DNA of 53,942 nucleotides from the NCBI GenBank assembly GCA_017992005.1, contig JAGOPO010000004.1:1-53942 (forward strand). Reading direction: 5' to 3'. This DNA is from Minisyncoccota bacterium (GTDB lineage Bacteria; Patescibacteriota; Minisyncoccia; 2-02-FULL-40-12; GWA2-44-9). The translations under genes and the position numbers were made by a program. Positions 18,956 to 33,214 of this stretch are shown piece after piece. The notes under the pieces are model-generated. The model saw only the letters and a program-made list of their open reading frames with translations, searched no databases and was not told where the DNA came from. Within the stretch, counting starts at the first letter, position 1. Each line of letters opens with the position of its first letter.

Positions 18956-20686
18956 TTATTCATGAATAACGCGGAGCAGTTCTTCGATAGTTGTGCGACC
19001 TTCAACCGCTTTCTTGAACCCATCTTCCAGGAGGGTGGTCATTCCATTTTTGACTGCAATCTTTTTAATTTCGCCAGCGTCCGCTCGTCTCATGAGCGCC
19101 TCACGAATGAAGTCGCTCATCTCTAGTATCTCATAGATACCCATGCGTCCGCGATAGCCTGTTTGCCCGCACGCATCGCAACCTTTGCCCTGAAAGTAAT
19201 CGTGGTGATCTCCTAGAATTGATTCCGGTATGTTTTCTTTGAGAGCATTAAATTCACCCTCCGTGATCCGCCGGGGCACCTTGCACTCATTGCAAATCAT
19301 ACGAACCAAACGTTGTCCGACGGCAACATTGACCGTTGACGCCACGAGAAATGGCTCGATGCCCATATCAAGCAAGCGGGGAAGTGTTGTTGCCGCGTCG
19401 TTCGTGTGGATGGTGCTTAAGAGCTTGTGTCCCGTGAGCGCGGCATTGATTGCAATCGATGCGGTTTCTTCATCGCGAATCTCTCCAACCATAATGATGT
19501 TCGGGTCTTGTCGAAGGATAGATCGAAGACCGGTGGCAAAGGTGAGGCCTGTACGGGTGTTGACCTGTATTTGATCGACACCCTCGAGTGAGTACTCAAT
19601 CGGATCTTCGATGGTGATGACGGAGACTTCTCGCGTGTTGAGCTCTCGTAGAATGGTGTAGAGCGTGGTGGTTTTTCCGGATCCCGTAGGTCCTGTAGCG
19701 AGGATCATTCCGTAGGGCGTTTTGACGGCCTTGCGGATACGAGCACGATCAAAATCAGTAAAGGCTAAATTATCAAGCGAGCTGATTGATGTTTGTTCTG
19801 CGAGTAAACGCAAGACTCCATTTTCCCCGTAATATGTCGGGATAATACTGACGCGTACGTCGAACTGCTTTTGAAGATCGGGGATCGTCATTTGGAAGCG
19901 TCCATCTTGGGCTGCTTGGTGTTCATCGGTGCGCATGCCGCCTAATACTTTGATGCGCGAAATAATGCCGGCGTGCAGCGCTTTGGGGAACGTGAATTCG
20001 TCGCTCAGGATTCCATCGATACGCATACGAGCAACGAGAGTCTCTTCAAACGGCTCAAGGTGAACGTCTGACGCTCTGGCTAGAAACGCAAATATCATCA
20101 TGTCGTCGACGAGTGTGATGATGGATATTTCCGCTTCGGGAAGTTTTAACATGGTCGCCACTTCCGTTTTGATAGTTGCGGCGCGCGCGACATACTGCGA
20201 GCCTTCGTTGCCTGACTCCGCTATTACTGCGCGTACTTTCGGAGTCACCGTCTTCAGCTCTTTTTCGCCTGGCGCGATGATCTTGGTTGATTTTTGTAAA
20301 ACTCCGGTGATGAGCTCGACGACTTTCAGAACGATAGCATCGGCGTTTGCATCTGCTTTTACGAGGTATTCCGCAAAGCCTATTTTTTCCAGCTTTTCGA
20401 TATCGCCTTGATCTTTTGTGGTGAAGAGCGTGAGGACGGGTACGTGTTCGAGGGACTGGATGCCTCGGAGTGCAGTCAGTGTTGCAAAGCCGTCCATGTC
20501 GCCGGAGAGGGGGATATCGACGAGTATTAGCGCTGGTGCTTTCTTGAGCGCTTCATCGACGCCGATGTTCCCATTTTGAGCGTGGATTGCCGCAAAGCCT
20601 TGGTGTTCCAGCTTCTCGCGCAATAATTGCGCCATAAAGAAGTTATCTTCGATGATAAGAACAGTTTTTGCGCCATCGCTAGGCAT
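18956..20686 (-). CDS. pilB: PilB/GspE assembly ATPase fused to an N-terminal receiver domain, 576 aa
   Basis: Residues 5-125 form a response-regulator receiver: acidic pair E13/D14, phosphorylatable Asp57 in LILVDIPLSGDMDG, T89 and K110 in the expected places. A linker is followed by the PilB core: a Walker A GPTGSGKTT, the IEDPIEY Asp box, DPNIIMVGEIRDEETA as Walker B, and a CxxC...CxxC zinc site (CNECKVPR and CDACGQTG). Powers pilin polymerisation in the cytoplasm. The usual N-terminal MshEN-like domain is replaced by the receiver, so pilus extension may be gated by phosphorylation. Overlaps the upstream response-regulator gene by eight bases. Confidence 0.92.
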   Translation of the reverse strand: MPSDGAKTVLIIEDNFFMAQLLREKLEHQGFAAIHAQNGNIGVDEALKKAPALILVDIPLSGDMDGFATLTALRGIQSLEHVPVLTLFTTKDQGDIEKLEKIGFAEYLVKADANADAIVLKVVELITGVLQKSTKIIAPGEKELKTVTPKVRAVIAESGNEGSQYVARAATIKTEVATMLKLPEAEISIITLVDDMMIFAFLARASDVHLEPFEETLVARMRIDGILSDEFTFPKALHAGIISRIKVLGGMRTDEHQAAQDGRFQMTIPDLQKQFDVRVSIIPTYYGENGVLRLLAEQTSISSLDNLAFTDFDRARIRKAVKTPYGMILATGPTGSGKTTTLYTILRELNTREVSVITIEDPIEYSLEGVDQIQVNTRTGLTFATGLRSILRQDPNIIMVGEIRDEETASIAINAALTGHKLLSTIHTNDAATTLPRLLDMGIEPFLVASTVNVAVGQRLVRMICNECKVPRRITEGEFNALKENIPESILGDHHDYFQGKGCDACGQTGYRGRMGIYEILEMSDFIREALMRRADAGEIKKIAVKNGMTTLLEDGFKKAVEGRTTIEELLRVIHE

Positions 20687-21074
20687 GAACGAGAGATGTT
20701 ATCTTCTCGATGATCTTGGATATATCCTCCGACTTTTTCATGTAATCTACGGCGCCGAGTTCTTTTGCGAATTTCTGATCAAGCCACGCGTTGAGTTCGT
20801 TTTCTTCTCCGAAGTTACTTAAGAATATAATTTGAATATCCTTAATCGCATCGTCTTTCTTTATTGCAGTTACTGTCTCTGTGCCTGACATGACCGGCAT
20901 CCCCACGTCCATAACGATAAGTGCCGGCTTTTCCTTTTTGCAAAAATCGATCGCCTCCTGTCCATTCGTTGCTTCGGATACTCGGAAGCCAGCAGCCTCG
21001 AGTTTTATGTGGAGAATATTCCGAATGCTCGCGTCGTCGTCGGTAACGAGAATGAGTGGTTTTGCGTTGTCCAT
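20679..21074 (-). CDS. Stand-alone response regulator receiver, 131 aa
   Basis: A CheY-like single receiver domain: acidic triplet D12-D14, phosphorylation site Asp56 in LIVMDVGMPVMSG, a Ser in IIFLSNF, and Lys in DYMKKSED. No output domain. Encoded immediately before the receiver-PilB fusion and after a histidine kinase, so it could relay phosphate to the ATPase. An extended -10 TGGTATACT (21082-21087) puts +1 one base before the ATG, so the message should be leaderless. Confidence 0.92.
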   Translation of the reverse strand: MDNAKPLILVTDDDASIRNILHIKLEAAGFRVSEATNGQEAIDFCKKEKPALIVMDVGMPVMSGTETVTAIKKDDAIKDIQIIFLSNFGEENELNAWLDQKFAKELGAVDYMKKSEDISKIIEKITSLVHA

Positions 21075-21081
21075 ACCCCCA

Positions 21082-21090
21082 AGTATACCA
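21082..21090 (-). promoter_or_regulatory. Extended -10 (TGGTATACT) of the response-regulator/pilB operon
   Basis: Located on the minus strand; predicted +1 at about 21075, next to the ATG at 21074. Confidence 0.6.
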
Positions 21091-21112
21091 TAGTAATAAT
21101 GACGAATTCCAG

Positions 21113-22771
21113 CTAGAGCGTTGGCAGTTCAATCGTGAAGCTGCTGCCCTTTCCTTTGCCCGGAGACGAGGCGAGGATGCTTCCCTGGTGGGCGTCCATC
21201 ATCTGCTTGGCGATGTAGAGGCCAAGCCCTGTGCCTTCAATTGTTTTTGCTTCTTTCTTATCGCGAACAAATTGCTCAAAGAGTGAGCTAATTACGGTCG
21301 GGTCTATTCCATGGCCAGTATCCGTCACCACGATGCGAATCCTTTTTTCCGCCGTGTTGTTTATGAAAATCTGAACGCTGCCATGGTCGGTGTATTTGAT
21401 GGCATTATCGACGAGATTTTGAACGACTTGCGAGAATTTTTGTCGGTCAACTGAGCAGAGTGATTGCGACGCATGATTCACGAATGTGAGCTCGAGGCCC
21501 TTATGGGAGGCGAGCGGTCGAATGTCTTCTACGATGCGCGATGTGAGCTCGGCGATATCGGTGGGCTCAAATGAGTATTCCATTTTTCCCTCCTCGAGCT
21601 TTCGGAGGTTGAGGAATTCCGAAACGAGCTCGAGCATGCGCTGTGATGACTCTTCAATCCCATGTGCAATTTCGAGTGCTTTCTCTGGGAGTTGCCCCAC
21701 GGTACCGTCACGTAAGAGTTGGGCTTGCCACTTGATTGCTGTCAGTGGCGTCCGAAGTTGATGCGAGGCAAATGACAAGAATTGAGATTTAAGCGTGTCT
21801 AGTTGCGTAAGCTTCGCATTCGCTTTCTGGAGGTCGTCAGACAGCGCTCGAAGTCTTTCGCGCTGGTTGACCTCGCGGACAATGGACTTGATGAGCATGA
21901 TGCTAAATGCCAACACAGCCGAGAACACACCCACGCGCAATATAAGAGTTCCGAGATCTTTTGCGATGACTAGTTCGATCATATTGAGAATGACCAAGAC
22001 GAGCGCGATCATTTCGGTTGCAAGTACCTTTGTTTCCAGGAATCGATATTTGCGAATCGCATGTGCGGTCAAGAGGACGAAGGGAAGAAAGAAGATAGGA
22101 ACAAGCGGTATGAATCTCAGTATGTTGAATACCAGCGGCAGGAGCACATTACAGACAAGAATGAGTAAAAACGTCATAGAAGCACCCGCGAGAATGACGC
22201 GCGCCTGCTTTCGTTGAATCTCTTCACCCGCGAACGTTTTTTTGAGAAGTTCGGCGAGACCTGCTAACACGAATGCGCCCGCCACGGCTCCAAAAAACGG
22301 GATAGCAGGACCGCGTACTGGATTGGTTACCGAGCCTACCTGAGAGACGACTTGGATCGAGCTAAACACATATGGCGTAAGTGTGAGTGCACTCGTCGCT
22401 AGCGCGATGGGAAACGCACCGAGCGTGATCCATCGTGGCAGTGCGGCTTGCTGACGGGGAAATACAAAAAATAAATAGAAAAAAGATGCAGCGTGCCAGA
22501 CGGCTGAAAACATCGTGATCCGCAACAGCCATAGCACCTGCCAGGGGTCCGTTATTTGGTAACTTGCAAAATTGGCGGAACCATACGCAACGGTCATGAG
22601 CGAGAACATGAGAAATGCTCGATTCGTTGCACTCTTCGGATTGTTGAAGTACACGATAAATCCCAGCGTGAGGAGTGCCGCGACGGCGATGAGAATCGCG
22701 ACAAGATCGAGATTGCCTAATCCACTAGTAAGCGAGCTTCCAATAAGTCCGAGTGACATCGGTGTGGTCAT
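21113..22771 (-). CDS. Membrane histidine kinase with multi-helix sensor, 552 aa
   Basis: Residues 1-300 hold about eight hydrophobic helices, a 7TM-like sensor rather than a periplasmic loop. A short coiled region (296-325) leads to the HisKA domain, with phospho-acceptor His337 in FASHQLRTPLTAIKW. The ATPase domain follows with NLVDNAIKYT (N box), DTGHGIDP (G1), EGTGLGLYIAKQ (G2) and a GKGSSFTIELP end. The start forms an ATGA overlap with the stop of the nitroreductase gene, so the kinase is translationally coupled to it. Probably phosphorylates the downstream receiver and/or the PilB receiver domain. The signal is unknown; membrane-embedded sensing suggests a lipid-soluble or membrane cue. 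Confidence 0.93.
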   Translation of the reverse strand: MTTPMSLGLIGSSLTSGLGNLDLVAILIAVAALLTLGFIVYFNNPKSATNRAFLMFSLMTVAYGSANFASYQITDPWQVLWLLRITMFSAVWHAASFFYLFFVFPRQQAALPRWITLGAFPIALATSALTLTPYVFSSIQVVSQVGSVTNPVRGPAIPFFGAVAGAFVLAGLAELLKKTFAGEEIQRKQARVILAGASMTFLLILVCNVLLPLVFNILRFIPLVPIFFLPFVLLTAHAIRKYRFLETKVLATEMIALVLVILNMIELVIAKDLGTLILRVGVFSAVLAFSIMLIKSIVREVNQRERLRALSDDLQKANAKLTQLDTLKSQFLSFASHQLRTPLTAIKWQAQLLRDGTVGQLPEKALEIAHGIEESSQRMLELVSEFLNLRKLEEGKMEYSFEPTDIAELTSRIVEDIRPLASHKGLELTFVNHASQSLCSVDRQKFSQVVQNLVDNAIKYTDHGSVQIFINNTAEKRIRIVVTDTGHGIDPTVISSLFEQFVRDKKEAKTIEGTGLGLYIAKQMMDAHQGSILASSPGKGKGSSFTIELPTL

Positions 22772-23802
22772 GTGATTGTAGGTGCTGCTCGGGGCGTGCG
22801 AGCGCTTGGCTTAGGGCTCATACCAACTCGAAGAAAGAAGGCGATCTCTGCATGGGGAGCTCCAACAAGGTGCTGCATATCAGTGTAGTGCTGTTCGATG
22901 AAGCGCGCGTGCTTTGGTGAAAGGCTTGGCGTGCGTGCGCGGACTGCATTCATAAGGAGCGGGATTCCTGTGAGGATTTGTGCACTCAGTCCAAGGTCAG
23001 TGGCGGTTAGCCAGAGGCGTTGCAGTGCTCGTCCACTGTGAAGATAGTCGCGCGCAGATCGCTCAGCAATTGTAATGCAGGCGAGTGCTGCTCCCGAAGC
23101 ATAGATTGGGGCGTTTCCGAAAGCGATTGCATTCGCAAATCCGAGAGACGTTAAGGTGGCCATGATTGGCCAATGTCGGAACGCTGGCCATATGCCATAA
23201 ATGGGTGCGGGGAGCTCGAGTGACGCTGGATGAAATCCAATGGGATTTGCTGCTGCCGCATGTGCAGTCCAGAGCATGTGATCGAAGAAGAACGTATGCA
23301 TTGCTCTATTTTCGAAGAGTACCTTCTCATTTGCCGCCAGCGAGGATGCAAGAAGTTTTCGGGTTAATCCGTCTTCGATGAGGAGTGTGTCGTTTCCTCC
23401 CGCTTCACGAAGCGCATTTCGTTGGTGCGGTGTTAAGGGCGTGGAGAGGTATGGCTTTCGATTCGAGCAACGCTCGGCAATAGCACTGGCAAGAGGATCA
23501 TGGCGAGTGGGTATCGACGAGAGTGTTATTCGTGCGGTGTGGAACTGATTGTGTGGCGTAGGAAATTCCGAAATGGTTGCCTGAACTCCCTGCGAGCGAG
23601 CCGCAATGGCGATATTCTCTAAGAGCGCTCCATGTGCGATGTAGGATGCAAAGTGACCGACGCCATAGAGCGACGTGTCTCGCTCGCTCAGGAGGTGCAC
23701 GTCAATGGTGTCGCGAGCAACTTCAAAGCGCCAAGGCTGGCAATTGTCTCCGGAAGGAGCGAGTACGGCCGCTGCGAGAATGTGTTCGATGGCGGTGCGC
23801 AT
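22768..23802 (-). CDS. Nitroreductase-family protein (Acg/MoeY-like), 344 aa
   Basis: An FMN-binding nitroreductase fold of the larger type. The N-terminal AAVLAPSGDNCQPWRF motif (residues 9-25) binds flavin phosphate in this family; AERCSNRKPY and a GSAAxACITIAERSA-like helix near 240 follow. Such proteins reduce nitro groups, quinones or double bonds; some are heterodimer or fusion partners of ThiF domains. The adjacent upstream gene is ThiF-like, matching that association. It has its own -10 (TATACT, 23815-23820) about six bases from the expected transcript start, and its stop overlaps the kinase start. Catalytic substrate unknown. Confidence 0.82.
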   Translation of the reverse strand: MRTAIEHILAAAVLAPSGDNCQPWRFEVARDTIDVHLLSERDTSLYGVGHFASYIAHGALLENIAIAARSQGVQATISEFPTPHNQFHTARITLSSIPTRHDPLASAIAERCSNRKPYLSTPLTPHQRNALREAGGNDTLLIEDGLTRKLLASSLAANEKVLFENRAMHTFFFDHMLWTAHAAAANPIGFHPASLELPAPIYGIWPAFRHWPIMATLTSLGFANAIAFGNAPIYASGAALACITIAERSARDYLHSGRALQRLWLTATDLGLSAQILTGIPLLMNAVRARTPSLSPKHARFIEQHYTDMQHLVGAPHAEIAFFLRVGMSPKPSARTPRAAPTIT

Positions 23803-23814
23803 GTGATGATTTAT

Positions 23815-23820
23815 AGTATA
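23815..23820 (-). promoter_or_regulatory. -10 element (TATACT) of the nitroreductase/kinase operon
   Basis: Predicted +1 near 23808, six bases before the ATG at 23802. Confidence 0.5.
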
Positions 23821-23870
23821 CCGCGAAATCATGCCAAAAAAAACGGACTCCTGGCTTCTGTGGGTATGCG

Positions 23871-25016
23871 TTATAGGCCGAGGTTCTTTGCAAAGGTGCG
23901 GGTATTTTTTGCGCGACGATTTTTTGCAGCGCCCGATGCGTGCCCATGTTCAAGCTTCTCATCCAGGGAAATAATCGAACGACCAGATGGAAGCGGAAGG
24001 CCAGCGGCGATGCGATGTACGCAGTATGCGGTGGCAGCTGCGCCCATGAGTGCGGTGCCACCGAGTTGAGGGACTGACACGAGGGTGTTGCCGATTTCTG
24101 GAAGAGACGATTGCATGCGAGGAGGAACATTTTCAGGGCCCATGAGGCGTGTGATTTCGCGAATGATTTGTAGTTTATTCATCGAGTGGAATCGCTCAAC
24201 GGAAGTCGCTCCAAGTCGACCCAGAAAGTAGGGCGTCTTCTTGAGGTCGTGGCGTTCCACGTCTACGACGCTCGTGTCTCCATTATCGGCAGTCGATACG
24301 AGTGCGACTTTATTGGCGCGTGCTTGCTCGCGAATGAGCTGTTTGATTGCCATTTGGTCCATCTCGTCGACCACAACATCAAGGCCTCGCATGAATGACG
24401 GTATGTTTTTTTCAGTAAGGCCATCTTGAAAGATGGTGATGTGTGCATATGGATTCATCTCCCAAATGCGACGAGCTACGATGGTTGTTTTTGGCGTGGC
24501 GAGTTCATGTACTCCCGCTAGTATGCGGTTGGTGTTGGAGAGCTCAAGTGAATCGAAGTCCGCAATTCGAATAGTTCGAGCACCACCCTGGAGGGCGAGG
24601 GTGAGGGCAATGCTACCACCAACAGATAGTCCCGCTACACCGACGACGCACCGATAGAACTGTTGCTGTTCCTTCGGTGTAATTAGATTTCCATTGCGAT
24701 TGGTTCGAACGAGAAAGAATTCTCGTTCAGGAAGAATATGCACGAGCGCTCGCTGCCAGGGAAGCCAGGCCCAGGTTCCTTGCTGCTCAAGCGTGGCGCG
24801 TCGCGTACTGCGAGCTACGTATGTCGCTATACGAGCTGCAAGCTCTGCTGGTGGCAGCCCAATGACTGCAGGGTTCTCGATTACGTACAGTTCAGCGAGC
24901 TGTTGCTCGTAGGTATCAATGACGCGCACCGATACATCGGAGCGCAGTTTCTTCAGTGCAGATTGATGCGCTGGCATGCGTGGCGTAAAGAGCGTTGGGT
25001 GGTCGACGGTGGTCAT
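23871..25016 (-). CDS. ThiF/E1-like adenylating protein, 381 aa
   Basis: Residues 75-120 show a TWAWLPWQRALVHIL segment and an RTNRN motif seen in stand-alone ThiF-like proteins often found next to or fused with nitroreductases. The adenylation domain follows: the nucleotide loop GVAGLSVGG (127-134), acidic strand IADFDSLELSN (151-161), then the conserved N-x2-R (N161, R164). No CxxC zinc pairs and no clear catalytic Cys, so it probably forms an acyl-adenylate rather than a thioester. It activates a carboxylate, perhaps on a small molecule or a peptide end. Start at 25016 because of the ATGA overlap with the upstream gene's stop. Confidence 0.85.
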   Translation of the reverse strand: MTTVDHPTLFTPRMPAHQSALKKLRSDVSVRVIDTYEQQLAELYVIENPAVIGLPPAELAARIATYVARSTRRATLEQQGTWAWLPWQRALVHILPEREFFLVRTNRNGNLITPKEQQQFYRCVVGVAGLSVGGSIALTLALQGGARTIRIADFDSLELSNTNRILAGVHELATPKTTIVARRIWEMNPYAHITIFQDGLTEKNIPSFMRGLDVVVDEMDQMAIKQLIREQARANKVALVSTADNGDTSVVDVERHDLKKTPYFLGRLGATSVERFHSMNKLQIIREITRLMGPENVPPRMQSSLPEIGNTLVSVPQLGGTALMGAAATAYCVHRIAAGLPLPSGRSIISLDEKLEHGHASGAAKNRRAKNTRTFAKNLGL

Positions 25017-26497
25017 TTGATGATATAGCGGGGTTTTAGTCCGGCGCGGAAATAGGGCTCGCATTGGTAGGGGTGCAAAATGACGCGCGGGCGGATGTCT
25101 TTGTCGAGGTTCGACCAAAGAAATTTGTACTCCATATTGATATCTAATAGTCGCGAGGTGGTGTGCTTGGCAATTGCAGTGGCGAGTGCTGCGGTGACTT
25201 TTTGGCGAGGGCGAAGCTCTACGTGTATTTCCAGGAATTCATCCTTATTTTTCAGGTACTCCTTTCGCATCGCAAATTTGCCCGTTATGGAGCGCAAAAA
25301 TTTCTTGTCATTGAGCGCGGCATGAATGTGTTCTGGATAGATATTGGCCGCATAGAAGATAATTGTATTGTCACGCCGACCATCGAGCGTAACAAACGGA
25401 AGCTTCCACGCAGACCGACGAAGCGATGGTGAAAGATGTTGTGTAGCCTCTGAAAAAGGAAGGATGGTCCCGCCATCGGCGAGGTCGTACTTAATGAGGG
25501 GCACTCCGCTGTTGAGAGTAAAGTTGAGAATGCCATCGGTGATATCGAGGTAGCGCAAGAATGGATTGTACTGGAATATGTTCGGCGTTAATGTGTCGTT
25601 CATGGTTTTACGGAGGGCAATACTTACTGGTGTTTCGTGACCAATGAGCAGTGTCTCGGACGAGCCATACGTGTTAAATATGCGAACCGAGTCGGGCGCA
25701 CTACCGGCGACAGATGCAACGTGATCCCTCCACTGCTCATTGAATCCTTCACTACAGAACAGAAGTGACGTGGTGATTGTGCTCCAATCAACACCTTCCG
25801 CTGCGCCCGTTTCGAGTACATCTTTGATGAAGAATGGGTGGCCAATAAGAACGACTTGATCGAATGCTGTTCGGAGGTGTTGCGTGACGCGTTGCATGTC
25901 GGCTTTATTGTTGCCGGCGGCCACAATCGTCAGGTCGTAGTCTCGCTGCGCTACCATCCAGCTGGGCAGAAGTGTAGCGATGCCCGATACATACACGCCC
26001 ATGGGAAACCCAATAACGAGCAGTGTTCTCTTTTTGTGAATAGAAAAAAGTGAACGATACGTGAGCTCGTGAATGATCGCCGCTTCGAATTCAGAGAAGC
26101 CACTTCGGGGCCAGAATTTCGGCTCGCCACTCGTCCCGGAGCTCATTGCCACGATGCTGGTAGCAGCGAGTTTGCCATCCCAACAACGATCGCTGAGCGA
26201 ATAGTGGTTGATGTAATTCTCTTTGGTGGTGCGGGGCACGAGGGCAAAGTCTTCAATCGTTTTCACCGCTCCATGGCGAATGCGATTGGTGCGAAGGAAA
26301 TCTTTATATGCGGGTACACGCACAGCGGCATCGTGAAAAAGCTTGATGGCTCTACGAGCACCAAGAGTATTCCAAAAGGTTTCGTCGCGGTGCTGGAGGA
26401 GGCGCTCGAATGTCGCAACTTCAAACGAGAAGTAATGCTTCACCCAATTGCGTTGTGCGTGAGCATCAAAAAACGTTTGCAAGTCGCGTGGTGTCAT
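25013..26497 (-). CDS. PaaK/LuxE-like adenylate-forming ligase, 494 aa
   Basis: Related to phenylacetate-CoA ligases and acyl-protein synthetases. The phosphate-binding loop SSGTSGEPK is at residues 119-127, a second nucleotide motif (FNTYGSSE) occurs near 280, and a LIKYDLADGG motif near 350 leads into a C-terminal hinge domain with a GRRDN signature. It would activate an aromatic or other carboxylic acid as adenylate and transfer it to CoA or another thiol. It sits between the aromatic amino-acid lyase and the ThiF-like gene with ATGA overlaps on both sides, so the three are one translational unit. The acid produced by the lyase is a natural candidate substrate (inference). Confidence 0.85.
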   Translation of the reverse strand: MTPRDLQTFFDAHAQRNWVKHYFSFEVATFERLLQHRDETFWNTLGARRAIKLFHDAAVRVPAYKDFLRTNRIRHGAVKTIEDFALVPRTTKENYINHYSLSDRCWDGKLAATSIVAMSSGTSGEPKFWPRSGFSEFEAAIIHELTYRSLFSIHKKRTLLVIGFPMGVYVSGIATLLPSWMVAQRDYDLTIVAAGNNKADMQRVTQHLRTAFDQVVLIGHPFFIKDVLETGAAEGVDWSTITTSLLFCSEGFNEQWRDHVASVAGSAPDSVRIFNTYGSSETLLIGHETPVSIALRKTMNDTLTPNIFQYNPFLRYLDITDGILNFTLNSGVPLIKYDLADGGTILPFSEATQHLSPSLRRSAWKLPFVTLDGRRDNTIIFYAANIYPEHIHAALNDKKFLRSITGKFAMRKEYLKNKDEFLEIHVELRPRQKVTAALATAIAKHTTSRLLDINMEYKFLWSNLDKDIRPRVILHPYQCEPYFRAGLKPRYIIK

Positions 26498-28074
26498 GGC
26501 TTCCGGAGTGAGTCGATGGGAAGTGTTGGTGACGACTTGAGAAACGCTACAATGCGCTCAAGATCAGGTGCGAGTGGGCGATCCTCAATCACGGCGGGAG
26601 TGAGCTTGCGGATTGCCCGATAGAGTTGCTGATTTTCTGGCGATAGTTCGCGGGAACACTTCAGGGCGTCGGTGGCTTGAGCGAGTGTCACCATCTCAAT
26701 AGCAAGGACTGCATATGCATTTTCAATCGCTTTGGTGGCGATGAGGGCAGCATCAAATCCCATACTCACAACATCTTGGTTATCTCCATTGGTTGGAATG
26801 GAGTGAATATGATGGGGGAATGCCAACGATTGACTATGCGCTGCCGTGGATGTGGCAACAAATTGCATTCCTTGGAGCGCGAGGGTGAGTCCAGGAGTGT
26901 GCAGATTCACAAATGGAGGTAAGCGGTGATTGATTGCAGGATTCATGAAGTAATTGATGCGACGCTCACTGAGCATAGTGAGCTTGATCATGCCAGTCTT
27001 GAGGTAGTCGACGGCAGCGGCGATGTATTCACCATGAAAGTTGCCTCCATGGAGGAAGACGCCACGCTCCCAGTCCACAATCGGATTGTCAGTAGCAGAA
27101 TTCATTTCCGTGGTGACGTCGCTACGGACTCTCCAGAACGCATCAAGCACGGGCCCAACAATCTGCGGTATGCATCGAAGGGAGTACATCTCCTGAACAT
27201 CTTCGGCGATTTTGTGGACCTCATCGGAAATCGCGTGCTTCTTGTTGAATGCTTCGCGATTTTTCATGCGGCCACTTTTGGCGACGAGACCTCGAAGGGC
27301 AGCAGCGGCGACTCGTTGGCCGGCGTGTGGGCGTACCGCATGAATGCGCTCGCTAATACTGTCGTCGAATCCACCCACGATATCGAGCGACCACGCACCG
27401 GTGCGGAGGCTGAGCGCAACAATGCGCGCCGCCTCTTCACAGAGGATTGCAGCCACTGCCGTCATGCCAGCGGTGCCGTTGATCAATGCCAGCCCCTCTT
27501 TTGGTCCGAGTGTTAGTGGTGCAATCTTTTCTTTTGCGAGCGCGGTCGCGGTGGGCATGCGTTCGCCACGGTAGTGCACCTCACCTTCTCCAATGAGGGC
27601 GAGTGCAATGTGTGCGAGTTGCACGAGGTCGCCACTTGTTCCAACGGCGCCGTGCTCTGGGATGATAGGAGTGATGCGGGCGTTGATAAATTTTTCGAGT
27701 TGATGGGCGACAGCGTCGGACGCGCCAGAAAATCCCTTTGAGAGTGTGTTGAGGCGAATAACCATTGCCGCAAGTACTAGGTTGGAATCAATCGGAGCTC
27801 CGATGCCGCTGGAGTGGCTGCGCACGAGATTGAGCTGGAGCTGTAAGAGGTCATCGCGGCCAATAATATGAGACGCCATAGGACCAAAACCCGTATTGAC
27901 GCCATAGATAATGCGCTCGGTGAGAGAGGCATCAAGGAGTTTTTTTGATTTGCGCATTCCAATGAGAGCGGCGGGTGCAACGCGCACCTGCAGGCGAGGG
28001 TTGGTAACGACCGCCTGTACGTCGTGCGTGGTGAGTGTCTGTCCCGTGAGTTTGAGGATTGTTGGTGTTGCCAT
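26494..28074 (-). CDS. Aromatic amino-acid ammonia-lyase or aminomutase (HAL/PAL, MIO family), 526 aa
   Basis: A full-length MIO-family enzyme. The YGVNTGFG motif carries the catalytic Tyr57. The MIO cofactor loop GTSGDL uses Thr146-Ser147-Gly148 where most relatives have Ala-Ser-Gly. MYSLRCIPQ (Tyr297, Arg300), the TDNPIV region, GGNFHGEY and LSERRINYF follow. The region near 432-438 reads NQDVVSM; histidine ammonia-lyases usually have Glu-Asp-His there, so a non-histidine (Phe/Tyr-type or beta-amino) substrate is likely. Promoter TTGTAC-N17-TACTAT (28084-28112) gives a near-leaderless start. First gene of the lyase, ligase and ThiF unit. Confidence 0.9.
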   Translation of the reverse strand: MATPTILKLTGQTLTTHDVQAVVTNPRLQVRVAPAALIGMRKSKKLLDASLTERIIYGVNTGFGPMASHIIGRDDLLQLQLNLVRSHSSGIGAPIDSNLVLAAMVIRLNTLSKGFSGASDAVAHQLEKFINARITPIIPEHGAVGTSGDLVQLAHIALALIGEGEVHYRGERMPTATALAKEKIAPLTLGPKEGLALINGTAGMTAVAAILCEEAARIVALSLRTGAWSLDIVGGFDDSISERIHAVRPHAGQRVAAAALRGLVAKSGRMKNREAFNKKHAISDEVHKIAEDVQEMYSLRCIPQIVGPVLDAFWRVRSDVTTEMNSATDNPIVDWERGVFLHGGNFHGEYIAAAVDYLKTGMIKLTMLSERRINYFMNPAINHRLPPFVNLHTPGLTLALQGMQFVATSTAAHSQSLAFPHHIHSIPTNGDNQDVVSMGFDAALIATKAIENAYAVLAIEMVTLAQATDALKCSRELSPENQQLYRAIRKLTPAVIEDRPLAPDLERIVAFLKSSPTLPIDSLRKP

Positions 28075-28083
28075 AGCAAGGCG

Positions 28084-28112
28084 ATAGTAGCTATTTCTTT
28101 TCGTTTGTACAA
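28084..28112 (-). promoter_or_regulatory. Promoter of the lyase operon
   Basis: Minus strand: -35 TTGTAC (28107-28112), 17-nt spacer, -10 TACTAT (28084-28089). Predicted +1 at 28077, three bases before the ATG at 28074. Confidence 0.6.
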
Positions 28113-28143
28113 TATTGCATGAACGATTGTATCTCGACCGCCG

Positions 28144-28154
28144 TATAGTACACT
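28144..28154 (+). promoter_or_regulatory. -10 region of rmuC (TATAGT or TACACT)
   Basis: TATAGT at 28144 and TACACT at 28149. The second predicts +1 at 28161, one base before the ATG at 28162. Divergent to the lyase promoter, about 40-60 bp away. Confidence 0.5.
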
Positions 28155-28161
28155 AGAGGAC

Positions 28162-32503: not shown

Positions 32504-33214
32504 ATGAATGAAGAGAGTTCTGCTCCCGTAATGACCCTTCGAGATGTGATGACGCGCGACGTCATCGCCATTGACGTCAATGATACGCTTGATGTGATCG
32601 CGGGACTCTTTGAGAAGTTCGACTACGAGGGCATGCCTGTCATTGATAGTCAGCACGCACTCAAGGGCATCATCACCAAGCATGACATGGTACTGCAGTC
32701 GTCAGAGGTGCACCTGCCAACGATGCTTCGTCTGATCGAGCAAATTACCAAAGGGAAGGGTGACCAGCGCGCTCTCGATGCGCACTTCGGAAAATTACGG
32801 AACATCAAAGCGACGAGTATTATGGATCTCAATCCTATCAGCTTGCCGCACAGTGCGTCTCTCGAAGAGGCGAGCAACATCTTTGCCGATTATCCACGCA
32901 CAAGCACCATCTGCGTGGTTGATGAGCAAAAAAAACTCGTGGGAATTATTTCGCATGCGGATGTCATCCGGTTTTTCAATCAAGCCTATCTCAAGCGTGC
33001 GGTCGCCAACAAAATGAACGCCAGCGATCACGCATATGCGCAGTACCCCACCAAATCAGAGTCCGATGTCGAAAAGGCATTTGCTGATGTGCAGCGTGAA
33101 TTTCTCCTCGTGCAACGCGATCGACCGATCATTTGGCAATATGTCGCGCTCGCGATGTTTGCGGCCGGATTATTTGTGGCGACGGCGTTCATCATCAAGT
33201 TTGCGACGAAATAA
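32504..33214 (+). CDS. CBS-domain pair protein with C-terminal membrane anchor, 236 aa
   Basis: Two CBS domains (about 9-65 and 106-165, with VMTRDVIAI and SIMDLNPISL starts), a linker, and a final hydrophobic segment (about 213-231). CBS pairs bind adenosyl ligands such as ATP or AMP and regulate partner proteins. It follows hppA by about 70 bases; a regulatory link to the pump or another membrane protein is possible but unproven. The promoter is of the leaderless type. Confidence 0.85.
   Translation: MNEESSAPVMTLRDVMTRDVIAIDVNDTLDVIAGLFEKFDYEGMPVIDSQHALKGIITKHDMVLQSSEVHLPTMLRLIEQITKGKGDQRALDAHFGKLRNIKATSIMDLNPISLPHSASLEEASNIFADYPRTSTICVVDEQKKLVGIISHADVIRFFNQAYLKRAVANKMNASDHAYAQYPTKSESDVEKAFADVQREFLLVQRDRPIIWQYVALAMFAAGLFVATAFIIKFATK

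Follow-up and report, generated by a model that had tools for sequence, protein, structure and literature searches.

A 53,942-nt stretch of DNA from a Minisyncoccota bacterium (GCA_017992005.1, contig JAGOPO010000004.1, positions 1 to 53,942), referred to here in its entirety as the window, carries a minus-strand cassette of four enzyme genes encoding an aromatic amino-acid lyase, an adenylate-forming ligase, a ThiF-like protein and a nitroreductase-superfamily protein, followed by a membrane sensor histidine kinase. Sequence comparison points to a make-and-sense operon in which the enzymes would produce an aryl N-acyl-amino-acid or oxazolone-type product and the adjacent kinase would act as its dedicated receptor, a reading to which we give slightly less than an even chance. 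That the enzymes belong to the N-acyl-amino-acid/oxazolone biosynthetic class, taken alone, we consider probable. The observations are the parts and their homology, the conservation of the operon, an exchangeable deaminase, presence or absence as a block, and co-variation. The genes concerned are as follows.

26494..28074, minus strand: 4-methylideneimidazole-5-one (MIO)-type aromatic amino-acid ammonia-lyase, tyrosine ammonia-lyase (TAL)/FlxA-like (or aminomutase); PF00221, E 5e-156
25013..26497, minus strand: PaaK-fold adenylate-forming ligase; weak NCBIfam PaaK matches, profile against PDB, AlphaFold2 (AF2) model with Foldseek
23871..25016, minus strand: ThiF-like protein of Rv1355c/TrzS type, proposed ATP-dependent cyclase; PF00899, E 5e-23, and N-terminal half of NF005901
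22768..23832, minus strand: nitroreductase-superfamily flavin protein (FDO-like), proposed desaturase; PF00881, E 1e-10, and C-terminal half of NF005901
21113..22771, minus strand: sensor histidine kinase with multi-transmembrane (multi-TM) HisKA_7TM sensor, proposed dedicated receptor; PF16927, HisKA and HATPase_c
20679..21074, minus strand: single-domain response regulator; PF00072, E 6e-22
18956..20686, minus strand: receiver-PilB fusion, proposed pilus output in the window's lineage; PF00072 and T2SSE

Translation of the window and Pfam/NCBIfam scans gave the minus-strand order lyase, ligase, ThiF, nitroreductase, kinase, receiver and receiver-PilB, with ATGA overlaps between lyase and ligase, ligase and ThiF, and nitroreductase and kinase, and a gap of 38 bp between ThiF and nitroreductase. 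The four minus-strand genes with their ATGA overlaps and the succession of kinase, receiver and receiver-PilB had been recognized in a preliminary description of this DNA and were confirmed by gene coordinates and Pfam matches. The common promoter which it placed at 28084-28112 was not recovered; no promoter-like site was found there, and the region holds 3 sites where 6.4 are expected by chance. That description had missed the TrzS/Rv1355c identity, the interchangeability of the deaminase, the co-variation of sensor and nitroreductase, and the block-wise gain and loss, which are presented below.

The ThiF protein matched the N-terminal half of NF005901 (Rv1355c/PRK07877; residues 12-349, 328 bits, E 1e-97), with the next ThiF family at 83 bits, and the nitroreductase matched the C-terminal half (residues 373-712, 161 bits, E 3e-47) and also the Acg family (143 bits). 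The full-length NF005901 cut-off of 476 was missed by ThiF because the ThiF/nitroreductase gene is split, and within the window's genome matches to both halves were confined to this locus. Rv1355c is identical with TrzS, an enzyme that uses ATP to close N-acyl-tryptophan to an oxazolone and subsequently desaturates the product (PMC12856293), and TyzB together with TyzC carries out the corresponding reactions on N-acyl-tyrosine (PMC10404671). The cassette ThiF and nitroreductase correspond to the two halves of this characterised TrzS type, which allows a specific chemistry to be proposed for the pathway. When aligned with two annotated fusions of the Rv1355c family (L122, L123), they showed conservation of the ThiF N-terminal signature, the adenylation Asp and the flavin mononucleotide (FMN)-region motif APSGxNxQPW, which reads APSGDNCQPW in the window. 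Asp220 of ThiF aligned with the ThiF adenylation-motif Asp and was invariant in the window, its relatives and the two fusions, its equivalence to TrzS D217 being by motif and not by M. smegmatis numbering. A Gln resembling Q651, which like R540 is an FMN/substrate-site residue of TrzS (window Gln285; TrzS numbering inferred), was present in the window and in three of the four other Patescibacteria aligned. Two long actinobacterial open reading frames (ORFs; L068, L073) which had been considered as ThiF-nitroreductase fusions were found to consist of ThiF plus unrelated or out-of-frame sequence.

ThiF and nitroreductase domains also occur in pathways to ribosomally synthesised and post-translationally modified peptides (RiPPs), and ThiF could work on a peptide or protein in the manner of an E1 enzyme, the ligase and nitroreductase providing RiPP-type tailoring and the kinase sensing the modified peptide. 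We hold this to be very unlikely, as the ThiF corresponds to the Rv1355c type along the entire protein, including the N-terminal region, and no conserved precursor-like ORF was seen among recurrent neighbours of at least 70 aa, shorter ORFs not having been screened.

Locus counts are based on those 34 Patescibacteria PaaK loci in which the ligase is flanked by at least 6 kb on each side; 75 loci were fetched with organism names, some of them outside the phylum. ThiF was found in all 34 well-flanked loci, nitroreductase in 32 and a same-sensor kinase in 32, all on the same strand, and the adjacency of a synthase gene and a sensor kinase, as in quorum-sensing pairs, was conserved in 32/34. The 75 fetched loci span Doudna-, Yanofsky-, Magasanik-, Lloyd-, Wolfe-, Kaiser-, Woese-, Jorgensen- and Wildermuthbacteria and others. 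When 380 Patescibacteria genomes drawn evenly from the phylum were sampled the ligase was present in 54 and ThiF in 57, with a sensor match within 10 kb of the ligase in 46 of the 54 ligase-positive genomes. Dozens of unrelated genomes share these neighbours, which puts the gene order far beyond chance, and the search for this order in other Patescibacteria, proposed in the preliminary description as a check, showed that lyase, ligase, ThiF, nitroreductase and kinase have remained linked throughout the phylum.

The first enzyme of the cassette is interchangeable. Elsewhere the lyase is usually replaced by a Glu/Leu/Phe/Val (ELFV)-type dehydrogenase (best family, ScyB tryptophan dehydrogenase) or by a HisC-like or IlvE-like aminotransferase, and exactly one first enzyme was found in 25 of the 34 loci and two in none (0/34). 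Judged by family, all of these enzymes would strip the amino group to leave a 2-oxo or 2,3-unsaturated acid, a plausible substrate of the ligase. The ligase tree placed lyase-linked and dehydrogenase/aminotransferase-linked sequences on opposite sides of a branch, with 5 label changes versus 18.2 after shuffling, a separation to which relatedness contributes. A class I methyltransferase gene is located directly before the kinase in five cassettes (L017, L020, L061, L063 and L085), which recalls the methyltransferase of the stieleriacine clusters (PMC12479983).

The window lyase had FlxA as its best NCBIfam family with 575 bits, under the equivalog cut-off of 700 (lyases of relatives, 606-617), and scored 463 bits with hutH, under the HutH equivalog cut-off of 539. 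Its closest PDB relative was tyrosine aminomutase 2rjr. The MIO triad is Thr-Ser-Gly instead of Ala-Ser-Gly, and the motif NGDNQDVVSM carries Gln, as tyrosine aminomutase does, at a position where histidases presumably have Glu (E414 of the P. putida histidine ammonia-lyase). Histidine catabolism was rejected on family scores and this motif, which bore out the aromatic type assigned to the lyase at the outset; the enzyme is of TAL/aminomutase type and no histidase, and may have either lyase or aminomutase activity.

Enzymes of the lyase, PaaK ligase, amino-acid dehydrogenase and aminotransferase types are frequent in catabolic pathways and nitroreductases often detoxify, and the cassette might on these grounds serve to assimilate or detoxify aromatic amino acids or phenylpropanoids, with the kinase sensing nutrient or redox state. 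This we regard as improbable. No beta-oxidation or ring-cleavage genes recur beside the cassette, the lyase is without histidase traits, ThiF has no catabolic place, and minimal operons of ligase, ThiF, nitroreductase and kinase occur which have no deaminase at all (L030, L046, L077).

The ligase reached no Pfam model, and a single-sequence scan gave weak PaaK models alone (35 bits with the PaaK equivalog TIGR02155, cut-off 646). PaaK family membership was rejected on this cut-off and the assignment was kept as one of fold similarity. A 56-sequence ligase profile matched PaaK2 in the PDB (E 2.5e-19), and Foldseek analysis of the predicted fold (AF2, mean predicted local distance difference test (pLDDT) score 91.7) returned PaaK1 as the best match (E 5e-22). 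In G023, a relative of the window's family, a 359-aa protein (L151:13528-14607) stands in for the ligase between ThiF and nitroreductase; comparison of this protein with Pfam, NCBIfam, PHROGs and PDB sequences returned nothing.

The kinase matched PF16927 (HisKA_7TM) with 39.7 bits over residues 28-246, above the gathering cut-off of 28.6, and the AF2 model of the sensor contained 8-9 long helices (pLDDT 89.9). A G protein-coupled receptor-like sensor was considered and rejected, the weak Foldseek matches (best E 0.009, TM-score 0.34) being interpreted as generic multi-helix topology. Co-variation was assessed from pairwise distances over 35 loci, taking the first 300 residues of the kinase as sensor. 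Sensor distances correlated with those of the nitroreductase (Pearson 0.64, Spearman 0.56) and of ThiF (Pearson 0.45, Spearman 0.42), values comparably strong to those between the two enzymes themselves (Pearson 0.54, Spearman 0.53), whereas the kinase domain of the same proteins gave Pearson 0.16 and Spearman 0.10 with the nitroreductase. The sensor was also poorly correlated with its own kinase domain (Pearson 0.16, Spearman 0.07). The sensor outdid the kinase domain in every 60% subsample when compared with the nitroreductase and in 98.5% of them when compared with ThiF, and the class of the sensor equalled the class of the nitroreductase in 32 of the 35 loci (p 7e-6, the loci not being independent). 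In the same 35-locus comparison the sensor followed the ligase no more closely than the kinase domain did (difference -0.02), so that the sensor has no tie to acyl activation. Actinobacterial ligase-ThiF pairs (L055, L056, L057, L058, L068, L088; Nocardia, Millisia) adjoin a divergently transcribed gene for a protein of about 1250 aa in which a helix-turn-helix, a P-loop ATPase region and WD40-like repeats were discerned by eye, making this protein a candidate alternative receptor.

Kinases with the same sensor family but without an accompanying ligase were also examined, in 20 genomes. A short ThiF and a protein of the FeeM/autoinducer-synthase superfamily precede a same-sensor kinase in L126, L128 and L133 and, as weaker cases, in L141 and L143, and in L127 such a kinase follows a synthase-like protein alone.

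L126:5150-6631, L128:6164-6796, L133:6346-6996, L141:7076-7837, L143:7713-8510: second cassette type, in other Patescibacteria

N-acyl amino acids are the products of FeeM-type enzymes and the substrates of the known oxazolone ThiF proteins, and this second cassette type lends independent support to the make-and-sense operon. A KAS-III/chalcone-synthase-like protein also lies beside a same-sensor kinase (L131:7510-8643) and is possibly a further type of signal synthase.

An oxazolone-type or N-acyl dehydroamino-acid metabolite could also have another role, as antimicrobial, envelope lipid or stress protectant, with the kinase controlling its production or self-protection instead of serving communication between cells. 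Regulators are frequently encoded in natural-product clusters, N-acyl tyrosines can have antimicrobial activity, the tyz genes have been linked to oxidative stress, and the known oxazolones are without a proven signalling role. We consider this explanation unlikely, although it is the most serious of the alternatives. The regulator is always of the same multi-TM kinase family, which elsewhere stands beside FeeM/LuxI-type synthases, no resistance or export gene recurs, and in the window's lineage the kinase leads to PilB and not to a cluster-specific transcription factor.

Comparison with close relatives revealed that the cassette is gained and lost as a block.

20687..28161, no strand: approximate span of the 7.5-kb block missing as a unit from congeners G001 and G002; gene orders and blastn, junctions approximate

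In these two same-genus genomes RmuC, which in the window is the upstream neighbour, immediately adjoins receiver-PilB. The site lacks all six of lyase, ligase, ThiF, nitroreductase, kinase and single receiver; the receiver-PilB itself is retained and lies outside the mobile block. In relatives that share this PilB type, a kinase and single receiver were found upstream in 7/7 with the cassette and 0/5 without it (Fisher p 0.0013), the seven including G023, with its replaced ligase, and the five including G003, which has no matched receiver on PilB. This distribution, together with the joint absence in the congeners, indicates that kinase and single receiver belong to the cassette and that receiver-PilB is resident. 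Several genomes of the family have the receiver-PilB type (18956-20686) as a resident gene even where no kinase adjoins it. Small proteins resembling a window ORF at 32504-33214, which is CBS-domain-like by eye, occur in Yanofskybacteria-type loci and, in L011 (5290-6358) and L151 (7284-8262), are located between receiver-PilB and kinase.

The window ligase groups with ligases of other Patescibacteria groups and not with the other type in its own family, which together with the absence from congeners indicates that the block moves. Both observations would suit a mobile island without a common ligand, in which the kinase was captured by chance and senses something unrelated. We give this little credence, since the histidine kinase is kept in 32/34 loci under many gene orders, the sensor tracks the nitroreductase and not its own kinase domain, and the independent ThiF-FeeM cassette bears the same sensor.

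For the make-and-sense operon we propose the following sequence of events. The lyase, judged by its family, would act on an aromatic amino acid obtained by scavenging, with Tyr and Phe the likeliest candidates, and deaminate it to a cinnamate-type acid. The PaaK-fold ligase would then activate this acid and acylate a second amino acid, either directly or via coenzyme A (CoA), taking the place of the FeeM-type N-acyltransferase of known oxazolone clusters. By analogy with the characterised homologues ThiF would use ATP to cyclise the N-acyl amino acid, with desaturation by the nitroreductase-family protein yielding an oxazolone or a ring-opened N-acyl dehydroamino acid. Linkage and co-variation suggest that this product may bind the multi-TM sensor, upon which the kinase would phosphorylate the adjacent receiver; in the window's lineage the receiver on PilB would probably be phosphorylated as well, which would make pilus assembly dependent on the level of the signal.

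Several points weigh against this proposal. Product, substrate, ligand binding, the amide-forming role of the ligase and pilus control are what we infer from the observations. For the ligase model PaaK-type CoA ligases came far ahead of the amide synthetase McbA in Foldseek, and as no N-acyltransferase was found among the cassette or window neighbours amide formation has to be ascribed, tentatively, to the ligase. The Arg equivalent to TrzS R540 (numbering inferred) is not conserved in Patescibacteria, and R540 was dropped as a defining residue. The Mycobacterium tuberculosis desaturases of the oxazolone pathways use O2 (PMC10404671, PMC12856293), which may be absent from many Patescibacteria habitats, a real difficulty for anaerobic members. 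Stieleriacine-type clusters also contain ThiF and nitroreductase, and oxazolones were not observed for them (PMC12479983). The sensor had no significant match among solved structures, and no exporter was recognized. The co-variation is drawn from near-saturated distances and from loci whose gene order differs between types, and it could stem from co-inheritance of neighbouring segments, yet the kinase domain lies equally near the sensor. Finally, PilB adjoins the cassette in only 5 of the 34 well-flanked loci. Pilus control as a general output was rejected on this count and is taken as one lineage-specific output. The preliminary description had suggested that the cassette product is sensed by the kinase and tunes the pilus; sensing is still the most economical reading, and the general link to the pilus did not stand.

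Oxazolone pathways are spread over several bacterial phyla, and the role of oxazolones is stated as unresolved (PMC12856293). We tentatively suggest, with rather less confidence than in the make-and-sense operon itself, that the cassettes may represent a new class of signalling circuit, in which diversified oxazolone-type or N-acyl dehydroamino-acid signals would be made from scavenged amino acids and read by a co-evolving dedicated multi-TM kinase. The exchangeable deaminase would set the acyl part and the cyclase/desaturase the head group, and in some lineages the circuit would drive the type IV pilus motor for host interaction. If this is correct the tiny, host-dependent and mostly uncultured Patescibacteria gain a signal of their own making, and the window's lineage a signal link to a pilus thought to serve host contact. 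With the oxazolone-type enzyme pair joined to a single receptor kinase, whose sensor half co-varies with the last enzyme, a few recombinant proteins would suffice for a direct test of the signalling hypothesis.

The closest known systems are the acyl-oxazolone biosynthesis genes trzAS (Rv1356c-Rv1355c) and tyzACB of M. tuberculosis and oxzAB of Pseudoalteromonas rubra (PMC12856293, PMC10404671). The cassette shares with Oxz/Tyz/Trz a ThiF-like cyclase, a nitroreductase-superfamily desaturase, the catalytic Asp motif and the FMN-region motif. Unlike these systems it has a PaaK-fold ligase and a deaminase and no FeeM-type N-acyltransferase, and includes a dedicated multi-TM kinase in the operon; unlike TrzS it has ThiF and nitroreductase as separate genes. 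Because a FeeM-fold N-acyltransferase is absent among the window neighbours we regard the cassette as a variant and have not filed it as a member of Oxz/Tyz/Trz. The stieleriacine, thalassotalic acid and kyonggic acid clusters, which produce N-acyl dehydrotyrosines, likewise combine ThiF and nitroreductase, and some of their loci, like some of the cassettes, include a methyltransferase; where the cassette has its PaaK-like ligase they have the acyltransferase NasY, and the available part of the source describes no kinase (PMC12479983). Flexirubin biosynthesis offers a partial parallel in FlxA and FlxY (NCBIfam), FlxA being the best family for the lyase and FlxY giving 19 bits with the ligase, but no polyene or resorcinol genes were seen near the cassette. 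In a survey of the Candidate Phyla Radiation the predicted CqsA/CqsS, LuxI/kinase and PpyS/kinase pairs are of different chemistry, and the PaaK-ThiF-nitroreductase route is absent from the survey, with ThiF unmentioned (PMC7567580); these pairs nevertheless likewise place a synthase beside a membrane sensor kinase.

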